Shown piece after piece: positions 1 to 11,414 of a stretch of 64,000 bases of DNA. The notes beneath the pieces are model-generated. The model was given only the letters and a program-made list of their open reading frames with translations, made no database searches and had not been told where the DNA came from. Numbering within the stretch: the first letter of the stretch is position 1; the number at the start of each line of letters is the position of its first letter. Source of the DNA: an uncultured Asticcacaulis sp. (lineage in GTDB: Bacteria; Pseudomonadota; Alphaproteobacteria; Caulobacterales; Caulobacteraceae); contig CAKZJB010000051.1 of assembly GCA_936940865.1 (NCBI GenBank), positions 1 through 64,000 on the forward strand, written 5' to 3'. Made by a program: the position numbers and the translations under genes.

Positions 1-1
1 C

Positions 2-211
2 ATCGACAACATCTACACCTCGATCAACAACGACAACGAAGAGATCGATCTTCACATTGCTGCCCTGAAGGCCGCGATGGCGAAGGAAGGCGTGAAGGAA
101 GCCGTGTTCGAGCCGTCAAAGCTCGCCCAGTCGAACCGCCAGGGCCGAAAGATCATGCAGTCCTATTTCAAGAAGAAGGGCGTCGCCGTCGCCTTTTCGA
201 AGGCCGACTAA
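2..211 (+). CDS. C-terminal end of an unrecognised protein (partial)
   Basis: The window opens inside a reading frame whose last 69 codons are visible, ending in TAA at 209-211. The visible part is charged and Lys-rich, contains no hydrophobic segment, and ends with the residues VAVAFSKAD. I do not recognise the family. It is probably a small cytoplasmic protein, but its start lies outside the window. It faces the map gene convergently, with about 25 bp between the two stop codons. It belongs to the block left of the chimeric joint at 2557, so it may not share the origin of the rest of the window. Confidence 0.5.
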   Translation: MDNIYTSINNDNEEIDLHIAALKAAMAKEGVKEAVFEPSKLAQSNRQGRKIMQSYFKKKGVAVAFSKAD

Positions 212-236
212 CACAGCGGAAACCAAGGCGCTCGCC

Positions 237-989
237 TCAATCGGCGAGCGTCAATACCAGGGGCCCGTTCTTCGTCACCACGATCGTGTGCTCGAACTGC
301 ACGGTTGGAGCGCGCGGCTCGCTGTACAGCGTCCAGTTATCCTTGTCGCCATCCTCGGCCCATTGGCCACCGAGCGAAAGAAACGGCTCGACGGGGAAGA
401 CAAGCCCCTCCTCCATTATCCGCGTTTCATCCGGATCCGGCCAGGTCGAAAGCTCGGTCGGCTCCTCGTGCAACGAGCGGCCAACGCCGTGGCTAGCGAG
501 ATTGGTGATCAGCGTATAGCGGTTCTTGCGGGCAAAGGCGCCGATCGAATTGCCGATATCGGCAAGCGGCCGGCCGGTTTTCACCTGGTTCAGCCCGACC
601 CAAAGCGCGCGTTTGCCGTCGCGCAGCAGTCGTTCCTGCTTCGCCGTGCCCGGCGGCACGCTGAACGATGAGCCGGTATCGCCGAAATAGCCGAGCTTCT
701 CCGCCGAGACGTCGATATTGACGAGGTCGCCCGCCTTGATGACCCGGTCGCCGGGAATGCCATGCGCGATCTCCTCATTGACGGAGATGCAGGTGGCGCC
801 CGGAAACTGGTAGCAAAGCTCAGGCGCCGACTGCGCACCATTGTCTTCCAGCAGCTTGCGGCCGATCAGATCGAGTTCGCGCGTTGTGATGCCCGGCTCC
901 AGCGCTGCCGCCATCACCTTGACGGCGGTCGCACAGATGCGGCCGATATCCTTGAGACGGACGAGGTCCTCTTCGGTTTCAACGATCAT
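237..989 (-). CDS. map: Type I methionine aminopeptidase
   Basis: This 250-residue cytosolic metalloprotease removes the initiator methionine from nascent proteins. The whole length is one pita-bread (M24A) domain of normal family size. The ligands of the two-metal centre are all recognisable: Asp93, Asp104, His167, Glu201 and Glu233, with the substrate-contacting His76 in the segment AHGIPGD. The spacing of 11 between the two Asp residues matches the E. coli enzyme. The start ATG at 987-989 opens directly into the conserved N-terminal helix. It is transcribed in the same direction as the upstream flavin monooxygenase, 67 bp away. Alphaproteobacteria often carry more than one map copy, so this need not be the essential one. 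It lies in the block left of the joint at 2557. Confidence 0.93.
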   Translation of the reverse strand: MIVETEEDLVRLKDIGRICATAVKVMAAALEPGITTRELDLIGRKLLEDNGAQSAPELCYQFPGATCISVNEEIAHGIPGDRVIKAGDLVNIDVSAEKLGYFGDTGSSFSVPPGTAKQERLLRDGKRALWVGLNQVKTGRPLADIGNSIGAFARKNRYTLITNLASHGVGRSLHEEPTELSTWPDPDETRIMEEGLVFPVEPFLSLGGQWAEDGDKDNWTLYSEPRAPTVQFEHTIVVTKNGPLVLTLAD

Positions 990-1056
990 CAGGGGTCCTC
1001 GCAGTCTTCGGGGCGCAGGCCCTCAGGGCAGCAGCCCACGGGGGCAAGGCCGCTGC

Positions 1057-2103
1057 TTACGCAGCCGACGCCTTCTCCGTCAATGCCTGGCGAACCAGGG
1101 GAGCCACTTTCGTGCCGTAAAGCTCGATCCCGCGCATGATCTCAATATGCGGCATCGGCCCGATCGCCATCTGCATCAGGAAGCGATCATTCTTGAAGAT
1201 GCCATGCATGGCGACGATCTTTTCGGCCACGGCTTCTGGATCCCCGACGAAGAGCGCACCGCGCGGACCGCGCGAGGCATCGAACTGCGCCCGGTTGGTC
1301 GGCCCCCAGCCACGCTCACGACCGATCCGGTCCATCACCACCGCCTGCGGCGCGTAGAAGATATCGGCGGCCGATTGCGTCGTGTCATGGATAAAGCCAT
1401 GCACGTTGATGCTGGTCTTCAACTGCTTCGGATCAACACCGGCCTTGGCCGCGCTCTGGCGGTAGAGATCGAAGAAGGGCGCAAAGCGATGCGGCTCGCC
1501 GCCGATGATGGCAAGCGCCAAAGGCAGGCCGAGATAACCGGCGCGTGCAGCCGATTGCGGTGTGCCGCCGATCGCGATCCAAAGCGGCAGCAGATCCTGT
1601 AGCGGACGGGGATAGACGCCCCTGCCCTGGATGGGCTTACGGGTCTGGCCTTCCCAGGTCACCACTTCGTTCTCGCGGATCTCCATGAGCAACTGCAGCT
1701 TCTCGGCAAACAGCAGGTCGTAGTCCTCAAGGTCGTAGCCGAAGAGCGGGAAGCTCTCGATGAAGGAGCCACGGCCCACCATCAGCTCGACACGACCGCT
1801 GGAGAGCAGGTCGACCGTCGCATATTGCTGGAAAACGCGCACCGGATCATCGGAGGAGAGAACCGAGACGGCGCTGGTCAGCCGGATATTCTTCGTCTGC
1901 ACCGCAGCGGCAGCCAGGATCGTCGCCGGCGAGGACGCCATGTAGTCAGGGCGGTGATGTTCGCCAAGGCCGAAGACATCGAGGCCGACCTCGTCGGCAA
2001 GCTTGATCTCGGCCAGCAACTCGTCGACGCGACGCTTCGCATCCGCGCCCTTGTTGGCGGCATTGGGATCGACATCGGCAAAGGTGTAGAGGCCGAGTTC
2101 CAT
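1057..2103 (-). CDS. LLM-class (luciferase-like) flavin-dependent monooxygenase
   Basis: The 348-residue protein has the bacterial luciferase TIM-barrel fold. Its N-terminus MELGLYTFADVDP and the segment GLGEHHRPDY are typical of the group that uses reduced FMN or F420 to oxidise small substrates. The substrate is not predictable from sequence. I placed the start at the ATG at 2101-2103 because an AGGAG Shine-Dalgarno sequence lies about 7 nt upstream and family similarity begins there; an upstream in-frame ATG at 2205 would add 34 unrelated residues. It runs in the same direction as map. The reading frame is intact and the length is normal for the family. Confidence 0.88.
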   Translation of the reverse strand: MELGLYTFADVDPNAANKGADAKRRVDELLAEIKLADEVGLDVFGLGEHHRPDYMASSPATILAAAAVQTKNIRLTSAVSVLSSDDPVRVFQQYATVDLLSSGRVELMVGRGSFIESFPLFGYDLEDYDLLFAEKLQLLMEIRENEVVTWEGQTRKPIQGRGVYPRPLQDLLPLWIAIGGTPQSAARAGYLGLPLALAIIGGEPHRFAPFFDLYRQSAAKAGVDPKQLKTSINVHGFIHDTTQSAADIFYAPQAVVMDRIGRERGWGPTNRAQFDASRGPRGALFVGDPEAVAEKIVAMHGIFKNDRFLMQMAIGPMPHIEIMRGIELYGTKVAPLVRQALTEKASAA

Positions 2104-2334
2104 GGCAAGACTCCTGATCACGTGTGTTGATCCTGACATAGAGATTGAGAGCTGCAGACAAAAGAGCCGAGGATGAAACAGTGTGTCACGCTCCGCACAT
2201 GGCAACAGTTCGCTTGAGGGTTGGCTGCGGCAAAACGCCGTTGCTTCGGAACTTCATTTGAGACTAACCTTTGATTTCGCGGGTGCAACAAAACACCCGT
2301 CATCCATCGGCATCCGTCGAGAAGGAAAATTCAG

Positions 2335-2562
2335 ATGAAAAGAACAGTTGTCGTCACCGGCTCCACCAGCGGCATTGGCCTTGGCATTGCCAAGGCATTC
2401 GCGGCGGAAGGCGCCAATGTCGTGATCAATGGCTTTGGCGATGCAGCCGAAATCGAAAAGGTCCGCCAGTCGCTGGAAACATCCGGTGGCAAGGCGCTCT
2501 ATCACGCGGCCGACATGTCGAAGCCAGCCGAGATCGCCGACCTGATCGCCACCGCCGAATTC
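2335..2562 (+). pseudogene. bdhA: 3-hydroxybutyrate dehydrogenase, 5' fragment only
   Basis: The first 76 codons encode the start of a short-chain dehydrogenase closely resembling BdhA, the NAD-dependent D-3-hydroxybutyrate dehydrogenase of PHB/ketone-body metabolism. The nucleotide-binding motif TGSTSGIG sits at residues 8-15. A good Shine-Dalgarno sequence (AGAAGGA) precedes the ATG at 2335. After the GAATTC at 2557-2562 the similarity stops abruptly, and the remaining 28 codons to the stop at 2646 are simply the antisense of the pirin gene. The NNAG motif, the catalytic Ser-Tyr-Lys triad and about 180 residues are missing, so the product cannot be active. The loss and the matching pirin truncation are treated together as a chimeric joint. 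Confidence 0.85.
2557..2562. other. Chimeric joint between two truncated genes at a GAATTC
   Basis: The hexamer GAATTC is the last sequence that fits both broken genes: Glu75-Phe76 of the bdhA fragment on the plus strand and Glu226-Phe227 of pirin on the minus strand. DNA to the left reads as normal bdhA upstream sequence and DNA to the right as normal pirin. Six shared bases fit either end joining at microhomology or ligation of EcoRI ends. GAATTC also occurs elsewhere in the window, so its presence alone is not decisive. Confidence 0.75.
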
Positions 2563-3237
2563 GACCAGGTGCCATTTGCGCACATCGGTGCCATTGATCG
2601 CGACATCGCCGCGCACGACGTAGCAGAAGACGTCGCGATCGCCTAAGCCCTCGAACAGGATGCGCCCGCCGGGCTGCAGTTCCAAGGTCGTCATGAACAT
2701 ACCGGTCAGCGATGAAATCGGCCCTTTTTGCCCTTGCCACTCGCCGGCGATCAGATTCAGCGTGACGCGGCCTTCGTCGGCAATGATCGCGGGAATCTGG
2801 TCCTTCTGCACACCGGTATAGGCGGGCGCGGTCATCTTCAGCCGGGCCGGCAGGTTGACCCACAGCTGGAGGATTTCCAGCGGTCCGCCCGTGCGCTTGA
2901 AGTCGTCGGGTGAAATCTCGGCGTGGGTCAGGCCGCTGCCGGCGGTCATCCACTGCACGCCACCCTTGGTGATGATGCTTTCGTGGCCGGCGCTGTCCTT
3001 GTGGGCCAGCGGGCCTTCCAGCATGAAGGTCACGGTTTCGAAGCCGCGGTGCGGGTGCGGGCCGAAGGGCAGGCCGCGATTGTTGGGCGGATAGACCTGC
3101 GGGCCGTGGTGATTTAGGAACAGAAACGCCCCGATATGGTCGAGCGCGCGCGACGGGATCGGCCGGCGGGTCACCAGGTCGGCGATGTCGTCGCGATAGG
3201 CTTCGTGAAGATCGAGGACGGGCTTGCTGACCGGCAT
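2557..3237 (-). pseudogene. Pirin-family protein, C-terminus lost
   Basis: From the ATG at 3235-3237 the product follows the bicupin pirin family for 227 residues. The N-terminal cupin metal site is visible (GPHPHRGFET at residues 59-68, and His105 in SGLTHAE). Pirins are usually about 230-300 residues, and the second cupin is cut here just after KWHLVEF. The frame then stays open to 2254, but those last 100 residues are the antisense of the bdhA fragment and do not look like pirin. Some pirins oxidise quercetin; others are redox regulators. With half of the C-terminal cupin gone, the protein is probably non-functional, unless the sequence joint is an artefact. Confidence 0.8.
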
Positions 3238-3316
3238 GACGGGCCTCCGTAACAGAAGCTGTCACATACCGCTCCGGCGATAAGAAAACAACGCGGCGCC
3301 ACATTGATTGTGGTAG

Positions 3317-3955
3317 ATGCTCGGCATGGATGCCCTGTCGCTTTCGCTTTTCTGGCTCGATTACGCCGCCGTCGCCGTCTTTGCCGCCACCGGCGCGCTG
3401 GCGGCCGCGCGGCGCAAGCACGACATCATCACCTTCGCCTTCTTCGCCGCCATTACCGGCGTCGGCGGCGGGACCTTGCGCGACCTCTTGATCGGCGCGC
3501 CCGTCTTCTGGGTCCATCGTCCGGGCTACGTCGTGATGTGCGTCATTGCGGCGCTGGTGGTCTGGCTGATGGGCCGGCGCGGCTGGCGGTTTCGCGCGCT
3601 GTTGTGGCTCGATGCCCTGGGCCTGGCGGCCTATGCGGTGGTCGGCACCGCCAAGGCGCTGAACCTGGGCGTGCCGCCGGTGTCGGCCATCATCATGGGT
3701 GTGCTCACCACGACATTCGGCGGGATTATCCGCGACGTGCTGGCGGGCGAACCCAATCTGTTGCTGCGCCGGGAGATCTACGTGACGGCGGCGCTGTTGG
3801 GCGCCAGCGTCTTCGCCGGGCTGAAACTGCTTGCGCTGCCTTTCTGGCCGGCGGCCCTGGTGGGTTTCGGCGCGGCCTTTCTGCTGCGCGCGGCGGCGAT
3901 CCGTTTCAACCTGGCCCTGCCGGGATTTCCGGGTGAGCGCACCGACTATAGCTGA
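3317..3955 (+). CDS. TRIC-type cation channel family protein (UPF0126)
   Basis: This 212-residue inner-membrane protein has about seven hydrophobic segments arranged as two repeats, each with a Gly-rich GVGGGTLRD or FGGIIRDVL signature (near residues 54-62 and 134-142). That duplicated architecture defines the YadS/UPF0126 family, whose structurally known members are trimeric intracellular cation channels. ATGs at 3317 and 3326 are both possible, differing by three residues; neither has a strong Shine-Dalgarno sequence. The gene is divergent from the truncated pirin gene, with 79 bp between them. The ion carried and the physiological role cannot be read from the sequence. Confidence 0.88.
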   Translation: MLGMDALSLSLFWLDYAAVAVFAATGALAAARRKHDIITFAFFAAITGVGGGTLRDLLIGAPVFWVHRPGYVVMCVIAALVVWLMGRRGWRFRALLWLDALGLAAYAVVGTAKALNLGVPPVSAIIMGVLTTTFGGIIRDVLAGEPNLLLRREIYVTAALLGASVFAGLKLLALPFWPAALVGFGAAFLLRAAAIRFNLALPGFPGERTDYS

Positions 3956-4030
3956 CGGCGCCTGCCATGATTCAGCCGCAAGCCTGTCCTATCGATTTTT
4001 TATAGCGCCCCAGTGCTTGAGTACCGGACC

Positions 4031-4648
4031 ATGACATTTCCAGCCAAATCCGTCGCCGCCCTGGCGGCCTTTGTCCTTGCCGCCCAGCCCCTGCTGGCGG
4101 CGGCCCAGGACGCGCCGCCGCGCTATCCCGACGACAGCTATTATAACGACCGTTCGTACGAGGCGCCGCAGGCCCAGGACGACGACCGTTACCCGCCGCC
4201 CGACGCCCGGCCTTACGATCAGGCGCGCAACGAGGCTCCGCCGCCGGTCGATCCGCGCGACCGGCGTTATGACGGCTACTGCTACGAACGCAAGGATCAG
4301 GCGCGCGCCACCGGCACCATCCTGGGCGCCGTCATCGGCGCCGCCGTCGGCAACGGAGCTTCGCGTCGTTATGATCGCGGTTTCAATACGGTTGCCGGCG
4401 CCATGGTCGGTGCGGCCATCGGTAATGCCGCGGGCGATTCGAGTGTGACCTGCTATGGCGGCCAGTACTACGCCTATGACGAAGGATACTACGCGCCTCC
4501 GCCTCCGCCCGAAGGCTATGAGGTCGTCTATTTCGAAAGCCGCCCGCCGGTCGAATATTATGAACGCGTCTATACCTACCGCGAGTACTACCCGCGCACC
4601 GTCTATCGCGAACGCCACTACACCCGCTCGTATTACCGCCGCTGGTAG
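4031..4648 (+). CDS. Exported glycine-zipper (2TM) envelope protein
   Basis: The 205-residue product starts with a signal peptide of about 25 residues (charged start, hydrophobic core, cleavage likely near AAAQD). A Tyr/Pro/Asp-rich stretch follows, then a glycine-zipper region at roughly residues 95-140 (TILGAVIGAAVGNG and AMVGAAIGNAAG), and finally a very Tyr- and Arg-rich tail. Glycine-zipper 2TM domains insert into or associate with the outer membrane, as in SlyB/Rickettsia 17-kDa-antigen proteins. No lipobox Cys is present, so this one is not a lipoprotein. I used the ATG at 4031, where the signal peptide begins. Its stop codon directly abuts the stop of pseF on the other strand (4648/4649). 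Confidence 0.82.
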   Translation: MTFPAKSVAALAAFVLAAQPLLAAAQDAPPRYPDDSYYNDRSYEAPQAQDDDRYPPPDARPYDQARNEAPPPVDPRDRRYDGYCYERKDQARATGTILGAVIGAAVGNGASRRYDRGFNTVAGAMVGAAIGNAAGDSSVTCYGGQYYAYDEGYYAPPPPPEGYEVVYFESRPPVEYYERVYTYREYYPRTVYRERHYTRSYYRRW

Positions 4649-5341
4649 TTATTGACCCTTGAGAATCCGATAGGTCAGCTCGGCCTTTTCCCAATCCTCG
4701 GGGGTGTCGATATCGACGACGTGCGCGCGCGGCAGGACGACCGGGGCGGCGATGGGCGAAAAGAGCTCTTCGCCGTTCAGGAAGGCGTCCGACCAGCCCC
4801 AGTAGAACTGCGCGGCGTCGTGATAGGCGGGCTCCAGGTCCTGCGACCGCGCCATGCGGTTTTCCGGCCAGAACATGGCGACGCCGTCGCCCTCGGTGCG
4901 GCGCAGGGCCCGCTGGATGGGAAAGCCGTATGAGGTCACGGAAAAGGCGAAGCGCTTGCCAGGCTGCTGTAGTCTTTCCCAGCCCTCCTTCAATCGTTCC
5001 GGATCGAGCAGCGGCGCCGTGGCGTAGACCAGGCAGGTGGCGTCGGGCCATGCCCCCTGTGCCTCGAACCATCTGATGGCGTGGATGACGACGGCGTTGG
5101 TGCCCTGCTGGTCGTCGGCCAGGTCTGCAGGGCGGACGAAAGGCGTTTCAGCGCCGTGTTCGCGCGCCACGGCGGCGATTTCGTCGTCGTCGGTCGAGAC
5201 GATGATGTGGTCGAACAGGCCGCTCGCCTTGGCCGCCGCGATCGAATAGCTCAGCATCGGCCGGCCGAGGAACGGCTTGACGTTCTTGCGCGGGATGCGT
5301 TTGGAGCCGCCGCGTGCCGGGATGACGCAAAGTCTTTTCAT
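4649..5341 (-). CDS. pseF: Pseudaminic acid cytidylyltransferase
   Basis: The 230-residue enzyme is expected to activate pseudaminic acid with CTP to give CMP-pseudaminic acid, the donor for flagellin or surface-glycan decoration. The N-terminus IPARGGSKRIPRKNVKPF is the signature of CMP-sugar synthetases of the NeuA/PseF group, and the segment FWPENRMARSQDLEPAYHDA is typical of PseF. The start is the ATG at 5339-5341; a GTG two codons upstream is also possible. It is divergently paired with pseG, with about 60 bp between the starts, which supports the pseudaminic rather than the sialic-acid assignment. The other pathway genes (pseB, pseC, pseH, pseI) are not adjacent here. Confidence 0.87.
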   Translation of the reverse strand: MKRLCVIPARGGSKRIPRKNVKPFLGRPMLSYSIAAAKASGLFDHIIVSTDDDEIAAVAREHGAETPFVRPADLADDQQGTNAVVIHAIRWFEAQGAWPDATCLVYATAPLLDPERLKEGWERLQQPGKRFAFSVTSYGFPIQRALRRTEGDGVAMFWPENRMARSQDLEPAYHDAAQFYWGWSDAFLNGEELFSPIAAPVVLPRAHVVDIDTPEDWEKAELTYRILKGQ

Positions 5342-5402
5342 GGGCACAGGAAAGCGCAGGTCCGTCTATATTCCCTTAAAGGCTTGGCGCTAGGGTAGGG
5401 GC

Positions 5403-6365
5403 ATGAAGCTCGTCATCCGCACTGAGGCCTCGAACACGATCGGGCTTGGTCATTTCATGCGCTGTTTCGCCCTGGCCGAAGCCGCGCGCGAGCAGGAACT
5501 GGCCGTGACCTTTGTCGTCAATGCCGATGCGCCCGTGGAGCGCGCGCAGGCGATCGGTGCGCGTGTGGTGGCAGCGCCGCCTTTGGGCGAGGATGCAGCG
5601 GTAATGGCTGCGGAAATCGCAGCGGACGACTGGTTGATCGTCGATACCTATGCCGCCGACGCCGATTACCTGACGGACCTGTCGACGCGCGCCAGGCTGG
5701 CGGTGATCGACGACCTCGACGTGCTGGAACGCTTCGATTGCCGTGTGCTGATCAATCCGACACCGGCGGCACCAAAGGCCTCCTACGCCGCCAAGTCGAA
5801 GGCGAAGCTCTTGCTGGGACCCGATTACGCTTTGGTACGCGGCGAATTCCGTCATCCGATCGCGACCGGCGACGTCATCACCCTGACCTTCGGTGGCAGC
5901 GACCCGACCGGTCTGACGGAGACGGTCGCCGAACGGCTCCGCGCGGCCTTGCCGGGCGTGACGATCCGCGCCATTGCCGGTCCGGCCAACCGCCATATTC
6001 CCGAACTGCAAGCCCTGGCGCAACGCCTCGACCGGCTCGACCTGATCGTCAGTCCGCCGTCGATGGCGGAAGCCCTGTCAGGCAGCGCCCTGGTCGTCAC
6101 GGCGGCGGGCGGCAGCGTCAACGAACTGGCGGCGCTTGGCGTCCCGGCCGTGGCCATGGTCGTTTATGACAATCAGGTGGCATGGCTTGAGGCGTGCCCG
6201 TTTCCGGCGATCGATGCTCGCCGCGGTGTCCCTGCGGATTTCCCCGCTCTGATCGCGACGTTGATGAGTGATGGCGCTCGCCGTCAGTCGATCGCACAGG
6301 CCGCGCATGGCGTCGTCGACGGGCGCGGTGTGTTCCGCATTCTTGACGCTCTCCGCGTGCAATAA
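5403..6365 (+). CDS. pseG: UDP-2,4-diacetamido-2,4,6-trideoxy-beta-L-altropyranose hydrolase
   Basis: This 320-residue cytosolic glycosyltransferase-B-fold enzyme removes UDP from the activated altrose sugar, the step before condensation with phosphoenolpyruvate to pseudaminic acid. The N-terminal motif GLGHFMRCFALAEA (His17) is the hallmark of PseG. A nucleotide-binding region with FGGSDPTG lies near residue 165, and AAGGSVNELAALGVP lies in the C-terminal half. Length is close to the family norm. It is divergent from pseF, an arrangement that puts the two enzymes under one shared intergenic region. Confidence 0.87.
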   Translation: MKLVIRTEASNTIGLGHFMRCFALAEAAREQELAVTFVVNADAPVERAQAIGARVVAAPPLGEDAAVMAAEIAADDWLIVDTYAADADYLTDLSTRARLAVIDDLDVLERFDCRVLINPTPAAPKASYAAKSKAKLLLGPDYALVRGEFRHPIATGDVITLTFGGSDPTGLTETVAERLRAALPGVTIRAIAGPANRHIPELQALAQRLDRLDLIVSPPSMAEALSGSALVVTAAGGSVNELAALGVPAVAMVVYDNQVAWLEACPFPAIDARRGVPADFPALIATLMSDGARRQSIAQAAHGVVDGRGVFRILDALRVQ

Positions 6366-7414: not shown

Positions 7415-8770
7415 ATGCGCCGTTCCATTCTTTCCCTGTCCGTTGCCTGTTTTGCCGTGGCTGCCAGCGTCCAGGCAGAGCCGCGTCTCATCGCCATGGC
7501 GTCGCTCGATGCCCACGGCCACGACCTGTCGGCGGAAACCGCGGCGCCGCTGGAAAACGGGGTGGCGGGCAATCTTCCGGGCGGCATGGGGTCGGCGATC
7601 GACTATGCCGGGGGCGACACCTTCATCGTCATGCCGGATCGTGGTCCCAACGCCAACACGTATAATCCTGTCGTCGACGACACCGCGTCCTACATTCCGC
7701 GCTTCCACACCCTGACGGCAAGCCTGGTTCCGTCGACCGGTGCGCTGCCCTTTGCCCTGGCCCCGCAACTGACCGCCACCACCCTGATGTGGAGCCCCGA
7801 AGCCCTGGTCTATGGCGACGGCAAGGCGGCCAATCTGCCGGACGGCACGCCGAAGCTGAATGGCAACGGCCGTTTCTATTTCACCGGCCGGTCCGACGGC
7901 TTCGATCCGAATAAGTCCTCGTCCTACCCGCTCGACGCTCGCCTCGATCCCGAAGGCATTCGCGTGTCGGCCGATGGCAAGAGCGTCTACGTGTCGGACG
8001 AATACGGCCCGCACCTCTATCAGCTCGACCGCGCCACCGGCCGCCGCGTGCGCACCTTCACCCTGCCGGCCGATCTCGATGTCGCCCGCTTAAGCGCGCA
8101 CGGCGAGGACGAGATTTCGGGCAATACGGCCGGCCGGGAAGCCAACAAGGGCATGGAGGGCCTGGCCCTCACCCCTGACGGCAAGACCCTGGTCGGCATC
8201 ATGCAGACCGCGCTGTTGCAGGACGGCGGCGCCAGGGGCGGCTTCACCCGCATCGTCACGGTCGACATCGCCAGCGGCGCAACACGCGAATATGCCTATC
8301 CGCTGACCAATGTCGGCAAGGACGGCAAGATCAAGTTCACCGGCATCAGCGAAATGGTGGCGATCAACAACCACGAACTGCTGGTCGACGAGCGCGACGG
8401 CAAAGGCCTGGGCGACGGCACATCGGCGGCGTTCAAGCGTTTCTACCGCATCGACCTGTCGAAGGCTCAGCCGGTCGACGGTCTGGCCGGCGCGGACGCC
8501 CTGGCGGCTAGGGCAGTCACCAAGACGCTCGCCTTCGACCTGGTGGCGATTCTCACCAAGGCCAGCGTCGATCCGGCGACCATTCCGGCCAAGATCGAGG
8601 GCCTGGCCTTCGGTCCCGATGTTCAAACGGGCGGCAAGACCCTGCACACCCTGTGGGTCGCCAACGACAACGACTTCCTGCCGGAAGCCGATGGTCGCGA
8701 CAATCCCAACCGCATCTTCGTCATCGGCATCGATGATACCGACCTGCCGGGGTTGAAAAAGGCGCGATAA
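7415..8770 (+). CDS. Secreted esterase-like phytase-family protein
   Basis: The 451-residue product has a clear Sec signal peptide (about residues 1-21, cleavage after SVQA) and then a beta-propeller-like domain matching the esterase-like-activity-of-phytase family (PF13449). Recognisable pieces are DRGPNANTYNP near residue 72, a segment reading LDPEGIRVS, one reading VSDEYGPHLY, and GMEGLALTPDGKT, followed by KIEGLAFGPD near the end. Members are periplasmic or secreted and are thought to hydrolyse phosphoesters or other esters; the true substrate is unknown. The start ATG is preceded by AAGGGG. The gene stands alone, with a 230-bp gap before the Panacea gene. Confidence 0.83.
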   Translation: MRRSILSLSVACFAVAASVQAEPRLIAMASLDAHGHDLSAETAAPLENGVAGNLPGGMGSAIDYAGGDTFIVMPDRGPNANTYNPVVDDTASYIPRFHTLTASLVPSTGALPFALAPQLTATTLMWSPEALVYGDGKAANLPDGTPKLNGNGRFYFTGRSDGFDPNKSSSYPLDARLDPEGIRVSADGKSVYVSDEYGPHLYQLDRATGRRVRTFTLPADLDVARLSAHGEDEISGNTAGREANKGMEGLALTPDGKTLVGIMQTALLQDGGARGGFTRIVTVDIASGATREYAYPLTNVGKDGKIKFTGISEMVAINNHELLVDERDGKGLGDGTSAAFKRFYRIDLSKAQPVDGLAGADALAARAVTKTLAFDLVAILTKASVDPATIPAKIEGLAFGPDVQTGGKTLHTLWVANDNDFLPEADGRDNPNRIFVIGIDDTDLPGLKKAR

Positions 8771-8961
8771 GCAAGGTTTGGGCCTGCAATCAAAAGACTC
8801 TTTCGGGGGGAAAGGCCGTTTGGGGCATCAGCCACACGTGACAGCGTCGTGCAAGCGAGTAGTTAGATCATCCATCTTCCGAAATGGCGGTTCCGCACAC
8901 CCTTGTTTCGGATAGAAAACACCTATATATGTAGGGTCGAACAAATTGAGAACTTGATACT

Positions 8962-8979
8962 GGCGCGAAAGCGCCTTTT
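8962..8979 (+). promoter_or_regulatory. Small GNRA hairpin with T-run in the Panacea leader
   Basis: GGCGC-GAAA-GCGCC followed by TTTT lies 24 bases before the Panacea start codon. It is only a five-pair stem, but its T-tract makes it look like a weak terminator or attenuator in the 5' leader. Just upstream, the sequence TTGATACTGGCG (8954-8965) recurs exactly at 9524-9535 inside the operon. Confidence 0.35.
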
Positions 8980-9002
8980 GCGATTCGGGAAAGGAGGTCG
9001 CT

Positions 9003-9521
9003 ATGCCAGCTTACTCACCTGAAATTGCTAATGAATTTATCCGTCGCGCTAGAGGCGACGACCGTGCCTTGACTCAAATGCAGCTGCAAAAGTTGGTTTA
9101 TATCGCTCACGGTTGGAACTTGGCTATTACTGGCCAGCCTCTTACTCATGACGAACCGGAGGCATGGGATTACGGCCCCGTGTATAAAGAACTTCGGCGA
9201 GCGCTGAAGAATTACGGGCGAGAGACTGTAAATAGAGAAATTCGCAATTGCGAATTTGTTCCCGGTGTTTTTGACGACAACGAGAATGGCGTTGCTGAAG
9301 CGCATCTATCTCCCGAGGAAAACGCTATAATCGACCGCGTTTATAAAGATTACGGACGATTTCACGCTTTTCAACTCTCTGCACTTACGCATCGTGATGG
9401 AACGCCATGGACACAGATTTATGGCGACGGGCGTGGGAAATTTGATGTAATTCCTACCGAAATGATCAGGAAGCATTTTGTTGAGCTCGCCACCCAAAAC
9501 AGACAGAATAACGGTAGATGA
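9003..9521 (+). CDS. Panacea/SocA-like (DUF4065) protein, probable antitoxin
   Basis: The 172-residue protein carries a Panacea domain across most of its length. Typical features are LTQMQLQKLVYIAHGW near residues 24-39, the HDEPEAWDYGPVYKEL segment (about 50-65), and a C-terminal FHAFQLSALTHRDGTPW. In Caulobacter the related SocA is the antitoxin and ClpXP adaptor for SocB, and Panacea proteins in general neutralise many unrelated toxins. A very strong AAAGGAGG precedes the ATG. Codon choice is noticeably AT-richer than in neighbouring genes, which suggests recent acquisition. The following membrane-protein gene overlaps its 3' end, as expected for a co-translated pair. Confidence 0.85.
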   Translation: MPAYSPEIANEFIRRARGDDRALTQMQLQKLVYIAHGWNLAITGQPLTHDEPEAWDYGPVYKELRRALKNYGRETVNREIRNCEFVPGVFDDNENGVAEAHLSPEENAIIDRVYKDYGRFHAFQLSALTHRDGTPWTQIYGDGRGKFDVIPTEMIRKHFVELATQNRQNNGR

Positions 9522-9882
9522 TATTGATACTGGCGTCTCTGTCGTTAAAAGTGTTGAGGCTCCGGATGCTAATGATCTACTAGAACGTGCTGCAGCAGAG
9601 CGTGCGCAGCTTGAAAATAAGCTTGCACGCTCTCGCATCAAAAATGTCAAAGCCGACAGAAAGATGCGAAAAACGTATGCTGGCCGCATTCTTCTATATC
9701 TCGAAATCTACTCGATAGTGATTGGCTTAATGGTGATTGCTTCCGGTTTTAGCTGGACCGGATTCTCATTACCTAACGAAATAATGGCTGCTTTGGTGGG
9801 GAGCACTGCTGTGGCTGCGATAGGTTTAGTGGGGTTCATTGCGCGTGGCCTTTTCCGGCCTCCTCCCGATGGAAAAGAATAA
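9481..9882 (+). CDS. Two-helix membrane protein coupled to the Panacea gene, candidate toxin
   Basis: This roughly 133-residue protein has an acidic N-terminus, a charged helical stretch (about 30-65, LERAAAERAQLENKLA), and two hydrophobic segments near residues 70-90 and 101-123. It ends in a short positively charged tail. I recognise no named family. No ATG fits: the best start is TTG at 9481, seven bases after AGGAAG, with TTG at 9478 as the alternative, giving about 41 bases of out-of-frame overlap with the Panacea gene. That coupling, the shared AT-rich composition and the Panacea partner suggest an effector that acts on the inner membrane. The toxin role is inference only. Confidence 0.6.
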   Translation: MSSPPKTDRITVDDIDTGVSVVKSVEAPDANDLLERAAAERAQLENKLARSRIKNVKADRKMRKTYAGRILLYLEIYSIVIGLMVIASGFSWTGFSLPNEIMAALVGSTAVAAIGLVGFIARGLFRPPPDGKE

Positions 9883-9884
9883 AG

Positions 9885-9900
9885 ACGCCTAACGAGGCGT
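9885..9900 (+). terminator. Weak terminator after the Panacea pair
   Basis: ACGCCT-AACG-AGGCGT forms a perfect six-pair hairpin two bases after the stop codon, followed by TCTTGCCTT. The T-run is poor, so termination may be partial. Confidence 0.4.
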
Positions 9901-9916
9901 TCTTGCCTTCGGGCAT

Positions 9917-9944
9917 AAAAAAGCGGCGCTCCGAAGAGCGCCGC
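9917..9944 (-). terminator. Intrinsic terminator of the aldehyde dehydrogenase gene
   Basis: Read on the minus strand, GCGGCGCTC-TTCG-GAGCGCCGC is a nine-pair stem with a stable UUCG loop followed by six T. It lies 36 bases past the end of the aldehyde dehydrogenase gene. Confidence 0.85.
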
Positions 9945-9980
9945 AAGTCGATCTGGATACGCTATACTCAAGTCTGAAAG

Positions 9981-11414
9981 TTAGAGCGGGAACTGATACG
10001 CCGTCTTGACGATCGTATAGAATTCCTTGGCGTAAGCGCCTTGTTCACGCGGACCGTAGGACGAACCCTTACGGCCGCCGAACGGCACGTGATAGTCGAC
10101 GCCGGCGGTCGGCAGGTTGACCATGACCATGCCGGCCTGGACGCGGCGCTTGAAGGTCTCGGCCGCCTTCAGCGACTTGGTGCAGATACCGGCCGACAGG
10201 CCCATTTCGGTGTCGTTGGCGACCTTGATGGCTTCTTCCAGGTCCTTGACGCGGATGACCGAGGCGACGGGGCCGAAGACCTCTTCCTTGTTGATCGACA
10301 TGTCCGGGGTCGTCTTGTCGATCAGGGTCGGGGCGTAATAATAGCCCGGCGTGCCAAAGGTCAGGTCTTCGCCGCCGGCGACGACCTGGCCGCCTTCGGC
10401 CTTGGCCTTGGCGACGGCGTCGCGCGCGATGTCGAGCTGCTCCTGCGACGCGATCGGACCCATCTGGACGCCGTCGGCGCGCGAATCGCCGACCTTGATG
10501 GCCTTGGCGGCGGCGGCCAGCGCGTCGACGAAACGGTCGGCGATGCCTTCGGTGACGATGATGCGCGACGAGGCCGTGCAGCGGTGGCCCGACGAGAAGA
10601 AGGACGAGTTCAGCACCGAGTTGACGGCGTTGTCGAGGTCGGCGTCGTCAAGCACGACGACCGGGTTCTTGCCGCCCATTTCGCACTGGACGCGCTTGCC
10701 CTTAGCGACCGCCTGGTCGCGGACGCGCGTGCCGGTCGGCACCGAGCCGGTGAACGAAATGGCGTCGCAGCCGTCGATCATCAGAGGGCCGGCGACCGAG
10801 CCGCGGGCGAAGACGACGTTCAGCACGCCCTTGGGCAGGCCGGCGCGGTTGAGGATATCGGCCAGCTCCCAGGCGCAAGCCGGGGTCAGTTCGGCCGGCT
10901 TGCACACGACCGTGTTGCCGAAGGCGATGGCCGGCGCCATCTTCCAGGCGGGAATGGCGATCGGGAAGTTCCACGGGCAGATCAGGCCGATGACGCCGAC
11001 GGGCTCACGCGTGATCTCGACCTTGACGCCCGGACGGACCGAATCGAGGACTTCGCCGTGGGCGCGCAGGGCCTCGCCGGCGAAATACTTGAAGATGTGG
11101 CCGGCGCGGGTGACTTCGCCGATGCCTTCCGGCAGGGTCTTGCCTTCTTCGCGCGACAGAAGCGCGCCCAGCTCGGCCTTGCGCGCCAGGATCTCGGTGC
11201 CGGCATTGTCGAGCACGTCGAAACGCTGTTGCGGCGTCGAGAACTGCCAGGTTTCGAAGGCGGCGCGGGCGGCGGCGATGGCGGCCTTGACCTCGGCTTC
11301 ACCGGCGGTCGAATAGGTGCCGATGATGTCGTTGGTGTCGGACGGGTTGATATCGTTGAAGGTCTTGTCGGTCGTGACCCATTCGCCGTTGATCAGGTTG
11401 CCTTTCAGCGCCAT
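9981..11414 (-). CDS. NAD(P)-dependent aldehyde dehydrogenase, 2-oxoglutarate-semialdehyde-type
   Basis: The 477-residue enzyme is a complete aldehyde dehydrogenase. Asn149 (CPWNF), the general base Glu245 (CEMGGKN) and the catalytic Cys279 (GHRCTASSR) are all in place. The N-terminus LINGEWV and overall length fit the group that includes alpha-ketoglutaric semialdehyde (2,5-dioxopentanoate) dehydrogenases of pentose and hydroxyproline degradation, but other semialdehydes are possible. The start ATG at 11412-11414 has AGGAGA seven bases upstream; a longer reading frame to 11462 has no such site. No sugar-catabolic genes lie next to it, so context does not settle the substrate. A strong terminator follows. 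Confidence 0.85.
   Translation of the reverse strand: MALKGNLINGEWVTTDKTFNDINPSDTNDIIGTYSTAGEAEVKAAIAAARAAFETWQFSTPQQRFDVLDNAGTEILARKAELGALLSREEGKTLPEGIGEVTRAGHIFKYFAGEALRAHGEVLDSVRPGVKVEITREPVGVIGLICPWNFPIAIPAWKMAPAIAFGNTVVCKPAELTPACAWELADILNRAGLPKGVLNVVFARGSVAGPLMIDGCDAISFTGSVPTGTRVRDQAVAKGKRVQCEMGGKNPVVVLDDADLDNAVNSVLNSSFFSSGHRCTASSRIIVTEGIADRFVDALAAAAKAIKVGDSRADGVQMGPIASQEQLDIARDAVAKAKAEGGQVVAGGEDLTFGTPGYYYAPTLIDKTTPDMSINKEEVFGPVASVIRVKDLEEAIKVANDTEMGLSAGICTKSLKAAETFKRRVQAGMVMVNLPTAGVDYHVPFGGRKGSSYGPREQGAYAKEFYTIVKTAYQFPL

Follow-up and report, generated by a model that had tools for sequence, protein, structure and literature searches.

Contig C51 (145,364 bp) of the genome studied here appears to be a chimera. 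The DNA analyzed, referred to below as the window, comprises 64,000 nucleotides (64 kb) counted from the contig start, where window base 1 lies. Sequence comparisons indicate that a 2.56-kb end of Rhizobiaceae origin is joined to native DNA inside a pirin gene, at a patch where the two sequences are coincidentally similar. An earlier note on this DNA had proposed that two unrelated pieces are joined at this point, and the comparisons bear this out, with Rhizobiaceae DNA to the left of one joint and, to its right, DNA from the genus of the window organism. We assign a probability of roughly 0.85 to the formation of C51 by template switching or misjoining at short homology in mixed DNA. The contig is read as a chimera because collinearity holds up to the joint from both sides, with a rhizobial genome (G1059) for the left piece and with congeners for the right.

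The left piece (positions 1 to 2556) forms the end of the contig. It opens with the 3′ part of an unnamed gene for a 78-amino-acid protein (positions 2 to 211, plus strand), which is cut by the contig start and is whole in G1059. Two intact genes follow on the minus strand: map, encoding a type I methionyl aminopeptidase (237 to 989; TIGR00500), and a gene for an LLM class (luciferase-like) monooxygenase of the Atu2307/SP_0267 family (1057 to 2103; TIGR03858). Both exceeded the cut-offs of their families. The piece ends in a 5′ fragment of a rhizobial bdhA gene, encoding 3-hydroxybutyrate dehydrogenase (2335 to 2556, plus strand). As the earlier note had stated, this gene is cut short: about 75 codons, matching positions 1 to 73 of 255 in TIGR01963, are kept, and the fragment departs from its homologues thereafter (following the residues IATAE). 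It scored below the NCBIfam whole-protein cut-off for TIGR01963, as expected of a fragment. The window genome owns a whole bdhA on contig C224 (18750 to 19514; 8751 to 9515 of locus L117) that is above this cut-off. The 78-amino-acid protein had no Pfam or NCBIfam match. Copies of it (L212, 13676 to 13909) are found in Rhizobiaceae and also, at about 62% identity, in the congeners G010 and G001, where the positions of the gene look different.

Window positions 1 to 2558 matched positions 411345 to 413883 of G1059 contig C26 at 86% identity. The match was collinear through coding and intergenic sequence alike and stopped at the joint. The gene order of the left piece is reproduced in G1059, in which bdhA is whole and is followed by xdhA (TIGR02963, above cut-off). 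In a search of 394 genomes from one family, 73 passed a limit of 1e-250 with the left piece; this limit is strict, with at most two candidates scored per genome, and leaves more distant Rhizobiaceae uncounted. The runners-up to G1059 reached 76 to 77% identity, and their matches ended at about position 2105. The best named matches in a plasmid collection spanned 73% of the query and came from Shinella (73.8%) and Sinorhizobium meliloti (73.0%). In R. leguminosarum pSK03 and in pSymA of S. meliloti strain Ak57, xdhA likewise comes after bdhA, and a luciferase-like gene lies no more than about 5 kb away. A search of E. coli genomes found nothing. A tetranucleotide classifier gave the left piece a score of 0.969, and the maximum among 348 chunks of the window genome was 0.649. 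The original training set contained the G1059 copy of the left piece; once the matching region was left out of training, the score was 0.966. In cross-validation, the classifier assigned 3 of the window genome's 348 chunks to the rhizobial class, along with 97 of 99 from G1059. Judged by alignment and composition together, window positions 1 to 2556 are Rhizobiaceae DNA.

This origin bears on whether a deletion or inversion within one genome could have joined two native loci. Such a rearrangement would fit the interruption of both genes at one point, but its probability is negligible. Some match to the left piece was seen in 51 of 60 relatives of the window genome (four candidates scored in each), and the top match, in another genus, was 69% over 763 bases, versus 86% over 2,558 bases in a Rhizobiaceae genome; the tetranucleotide composition of the piece is likewise rhizobial. 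An internal rearrangement was rejected on the origin of the left piece.

From position 2557 rightwards, the DNA is that of the window organism's own genus. Pirin (2557 to 3237, minus strand; Pfam PF02678) is followed by native genes for a Gly_transporter membrane protein (3317 to 3955, plus strand; PF03458), PseF (4649 to 5347, minus strand; TIGR03584), and PseG (5403 to 6365, plus strand; TIGR03590), the last two above cut-off. The earlier note was also correct that pirin, reading leftwards from 3237, has lost its C-terminus: the N-terminal 227 codons are kept, and the gene extends about 55 to 60 codons farther in congeners. Pirin and Gly_transporter match congeners in one collinear stretch, at 77% in G003 and 73% in G010. 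Ten of 24 congeners were fetched because of a long pirin match, and all counts for the pirin locus cover these 10 loci. A comparison of pirin and bdhA with relatives, as proposed in the earlier note, found pirin intact in 10/10 loci and bdhA intact in G1059. In the same 10 loci, PseI and PseC lie on the far side of pirin, with PseI at 0 to 2.6 kb; the two genes were recognized by short motifs, and the NCBIfam check covered G003 and contig C239 of the window genome.

Contig C239 carries PseC and PseI (TIGR03588 and TIGR03586, both above cut-off). It starts inside PseI, which matches TIGR03586 positions 2 to 314 of 327 and has its SAF domain cut at position 34 of 63. Since PseI and PseC lie beside pirin in the congener loci and C239, read in reverse, ends in PseI, C239 was placed as the left neighbor of window position 2557. 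The distance from the end of C239 to position 2557 was about 265 bp on the G003 map and 0.3 to 0.9 kb when mapped on G010, G007, G008, and G020. With 40 of 131 candidates scored, the only other match that the bases of this gap gave in the assembly was one of 53 bases to a pirin-like stretch at C182 positions 3580 to 4200. These results indicate that C239 and the part of C51 to the right of 2557 are natural neighbors, so that the native continuation of C51 is found elsewhere in the same assembly, with the last stretch before the joint missing. We infer that the native locus is an unbroken run of PseI, pirin, and Gly_transporter across a small assembly gap.

Farther along the window, a SocA/Panacea antitoxin-like gene (PF13274) lies at positions 9003 to 9521, in a GC-poor stretch. 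GC content is 46 to 50% in the intervals from 8751 to 10000, versus 63 to 69% at 8001 to 8750 and 10001 to 11250. This stretch suggests a mobile or toxin-antitoxin insert.

At the joint, the broken bdhA and pirin genes face one another across 2556/2557. The joint region (2538 to 2562) consists of a 19-bp patch of bdhA that resembles native pirin (2538 to 2556), followed by the GAATTC of pirin. The genome's own pirin end is missing from the assembly, and the patch was compared with the pirin gene of each of the 10 congeners: 12 to 16 of 19 bases agreed. Elsewhere in the left piece, the null mean was about 5 of 19, and at most 0.16% of positions were as good. When the right piece alone was the query, the congener match began at 2557 to 2564. 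A query spanning the joint carried the pirin match back to 2538 in 8 of the 10 congeners and to 2546 to 2547 in the other 2, and the rhizobial match ran to 2558. The statement in the earlier note that both matches end at one hexamer was not confirmed; instead, the edges of the bdhA and pirin matches overlap by 10 to 20 bp of fortuitous similarity. An inverted similarity also flanks the joint, with 20 of 23 bases agreeing between 2411 to 2433 (rhizobial bdhA) and 2590 to 2612 (native pirin). None of 1,498 random rhizobial/native pairs equaled it, in a test made after the similarity had been seen, and it may reflect shared V-x-I-N-G codons.

The hexamer at the joint is an EcoRI site, and ligation of two EcoRI fragments during cloning or library construction had been offered as one explanation of the joint. 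The presence of GAATTC is what this explanation has in its favor, but it is very improbable on several counts. GAATTC at 2557 is made of pirin's own codons, the E-F of V-E-F. None of 14 distinct bdhA homologues (from the fetched loci, tblastn limit of 1e-18) has the spacing needed for a shared GAATTC; at the joint, 13 of the 14 carry two extra residues relative to the window, and the remaining one, the C224 copy of the window genome, carries a single extra residue. In G1059, an 86% relative standing in for the source genome, bdhA has a GAATTC of its own 6 bp farther downstream. Ligation at EcoRI sites would keep those 6 bases, and their absence from the window therefore contradicts it. The window has 24 copies of GAATTC, versus 18 expected, and among the contig termini listed (54 starts and 32 ends, 2 of each reading N), none showed an EcoRI half site. 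The cloning explanation did not survive these comparisons; the hexamer lies here by coincidence and has no part in the join.

The second explanation offered for the joint, microhomology-mediated joining, fared better. The 19-bp patch fits it, although the sequence reads the same whether the join was made by a cell, in the tube, or by an assembler. The similarity at the joint would speak against plain end-to-end ligation and would be compatible with recombination in a cell. Homology-facilitated illegitimate recombination would show short homology at the joint, as seen in the 12 to 16 of 19 bases shared with the congeners' pirin, and would have a long homologous anchor on the opposite side of the foreign DNA, a side that lies beyond the contig start. 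The similarity does not count against template switching.

A true insertion would mean that rhizobial DNA was joined into pirin at short homology in a cell, its far side now being lost in the gap between C51 and C239. The similar patch is what homology-guided recombination predicts, and in a study of Salmonella reads, all of the experimentally confirmed rearrangements reported had homologous repeats at their endpoints (PMC3411829). The same study, in its treatment of chimeric reads, took microhomology beyond chance (cut-offs of 7 to 9 bp) as a sign of true rearrangement rather than of ligation chimeras (PMC3411829). Neither map nor the LLM gene, the two complete genes of the piece, is damaged, and a count of PF00528 proteins and a 20-kb G1059 search (both below) revealed no further rhizobial DNA in the assembly. 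Nevertheless, an insertion is unlikely. In vitro template switching would use the patch equally well, and an insert whose genes continue in G1059 would need its far end to fall inside the short gap between C239 and C51. The insertion would disrupt a pirin gene that is intact in every congener locus fetched and would import a cut bdhA although C224 already holds a whole one. The foreign DNA extends as far as the contig start, so that its other boundary would lie beyond C51. Mobile-element genes and flanking repeats, the usual but not obligatory marks of insertion, were not found: no recombinase, transposase, or other mobile-element gene was named in scans of the submitted genes of positions 1 to 6365, and positions 1 to 3300 contained no direct repeat longer than 31 nucleotides. 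The 64-kb window contained no tRNA, and one tRNA was seen across seven loci. A real junction formed in a living cell by element-free capture of rhizobial DNA, guided by both the 19-bp direct and the 20-of-23 inverted similarity, is doubtful in slightly greater measure.

ABC permeases (PF00528) are numerous in rhizobia, and their count served as one measure of wider contamination, although such a count would miss perhaps up to 100 kb of rhizobial DNA. The window genome has 11, compared with 9 to 24 in 24 congeners, which is no excess. A query of 20 kb of G1059 around the piece gave eight matches in the assembly (40 of 260 candidates scored). No second match was at the rhizobial level; the other seven were 66 to 73% over 154 to 1,339 bases or 85 to 91% over 50 to 53 bases. 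The starts of 60 further contigs were also considered with the classifier, and 59 were scored (1 was left out as N). Two of the 59, C46 and C104, scored above 0.5 (the two scores being 0.785 and 0.657). Among the plasmid-collection matches listed for these two starts, the best span 3 to 14% of the query and are mostly nonrhizobial. The C46 start (L313) has an integrase fragment (arm-binding and central domains) beside a repetitive calcium-binding gene, presumably RTX-like. The C104 start (L324) has an ArdC-like antirestriction gene, with best plasmid matches to Caulobacter and Asticcacaulis, and is perhaps plasmid DNA of the window organism. Because of the integrase fragment, the ArdC-like protein, and the mostly nonrhizobial plasmid matches, these two starts look like mobile DNA and not a rhizobial graft. 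Wider rhizobial contamination was rejected, as PF00528 showed no excess and no other rhizobial stretch was confirmed in the part examined. Within that part, about 0.92 Mb of 5.07 Mb plus the 59 contig starts, the data point to one rhizobial graft and not to broad contamination.

The window genome comprises 245 contigs, with an estimated completeness of 99.98 and contamination of 3.12. Contamination estimates of 3 to 4 in some congeners are similar, and the single rhizobial graft does not account for the value of 3.12. Among 115 contigs seen in the assembly, the shortest is 2,414 bp, compared with contigs down to 443 bp in G1059 (among 20 contigs). This size floor looks like that of a length-filtered assembly, as is common for binned metagenomes. 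Among 144 contig ends compared, one pair had an exact 55-bp overlap: the ends of C182 (L118) and C177 (L286) are identical over exactly 55 bases and then diverge, as at a fork in a k=55 assembly graph. The size floor and the overlap are hints, though no proof, that the assembly was made from a graph and then filtered by length, as in a binned metagenome.

We favor the tube or the assembler over the cell as the site of joining. A chimera of this kind would begin with a sample that also contained a Rhizobiaceae species, as a metagenome or as contaminated DNA. The join would have been made outside the cell, by template switching or strand annealing at the shared patch while DNA was being amplified or made into a library; alternatively, a misjoin may have occurred during assembly. 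An assembler working at k=55 should not by itself join sequences on 19 bp or fewer, and chimeric reads or gap filling would therefore be needed and are the likelier step. Binning would then have dropped purely rhizobial contigs and kept a native contig of 145 kb carrying 2.56 kb of foreign DNA at one end, leaving the piece alone in the assembly. That no general rhizobial contamination was seen in the part examined would be counterevidence to contaminated DNA in an isolate assembly but is expected in a binned metagenome.

These results have consequences for how the window is read. Positions 1 to 2556 should not be read as genes of the window organism, and the pirin and bdhA genes of the window are probably not pseudogenes. 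When two genes seem to break off together close to the end of a contig, a simple check can resolve the matter, namely, finding the natural neighbor on another contig. Were the insertion true, it would offer a clean example of a genome capturing DNA from a different family with no mobile element involved.

Chimeras of this general kind have been described. The account of GUNC indicates that misassembly yields chimeric contigs in metagenome-assembled genomes and that this is relatively rare compared with misbinning (PMC8201837). Like such contigs, C51 is lineage pure on either side of a single joint; unlike the cases in that account, the metagenome origin of the window assembly is one that we infer (PMC8201837). 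The description of MicroSEC reports that single strands annealing at microhomology during library preparation give chimeric reads, and the joint in C51 likewise lies at a short similar patch (PMC8674242). MicroSEC, as presented there, concerns reads from fixed clinical tissue, whereas the C51 joint is known from assembled sequence alone (PMC8674242). In S. meliloti, bdhA is reported to adjoin xdh genes in a bdhA-xdhA2-xdhB2 operon (PMC5596199). The window fragment represents the 5′ end of a bdhA of this type but, unlike the operon as reported, breaks off at about codon 75 and has no xdhA after it (PMC5596199). Finally, the native side resembles the pse locus of congeners with its pirin neighbor, as pirin, Gly_transporter, PseF, and PseG are on C51 and PseC and PseI are on C239; it differs in that the locus is split over two contigs and the end of C51 is replaced by foreign DNA.
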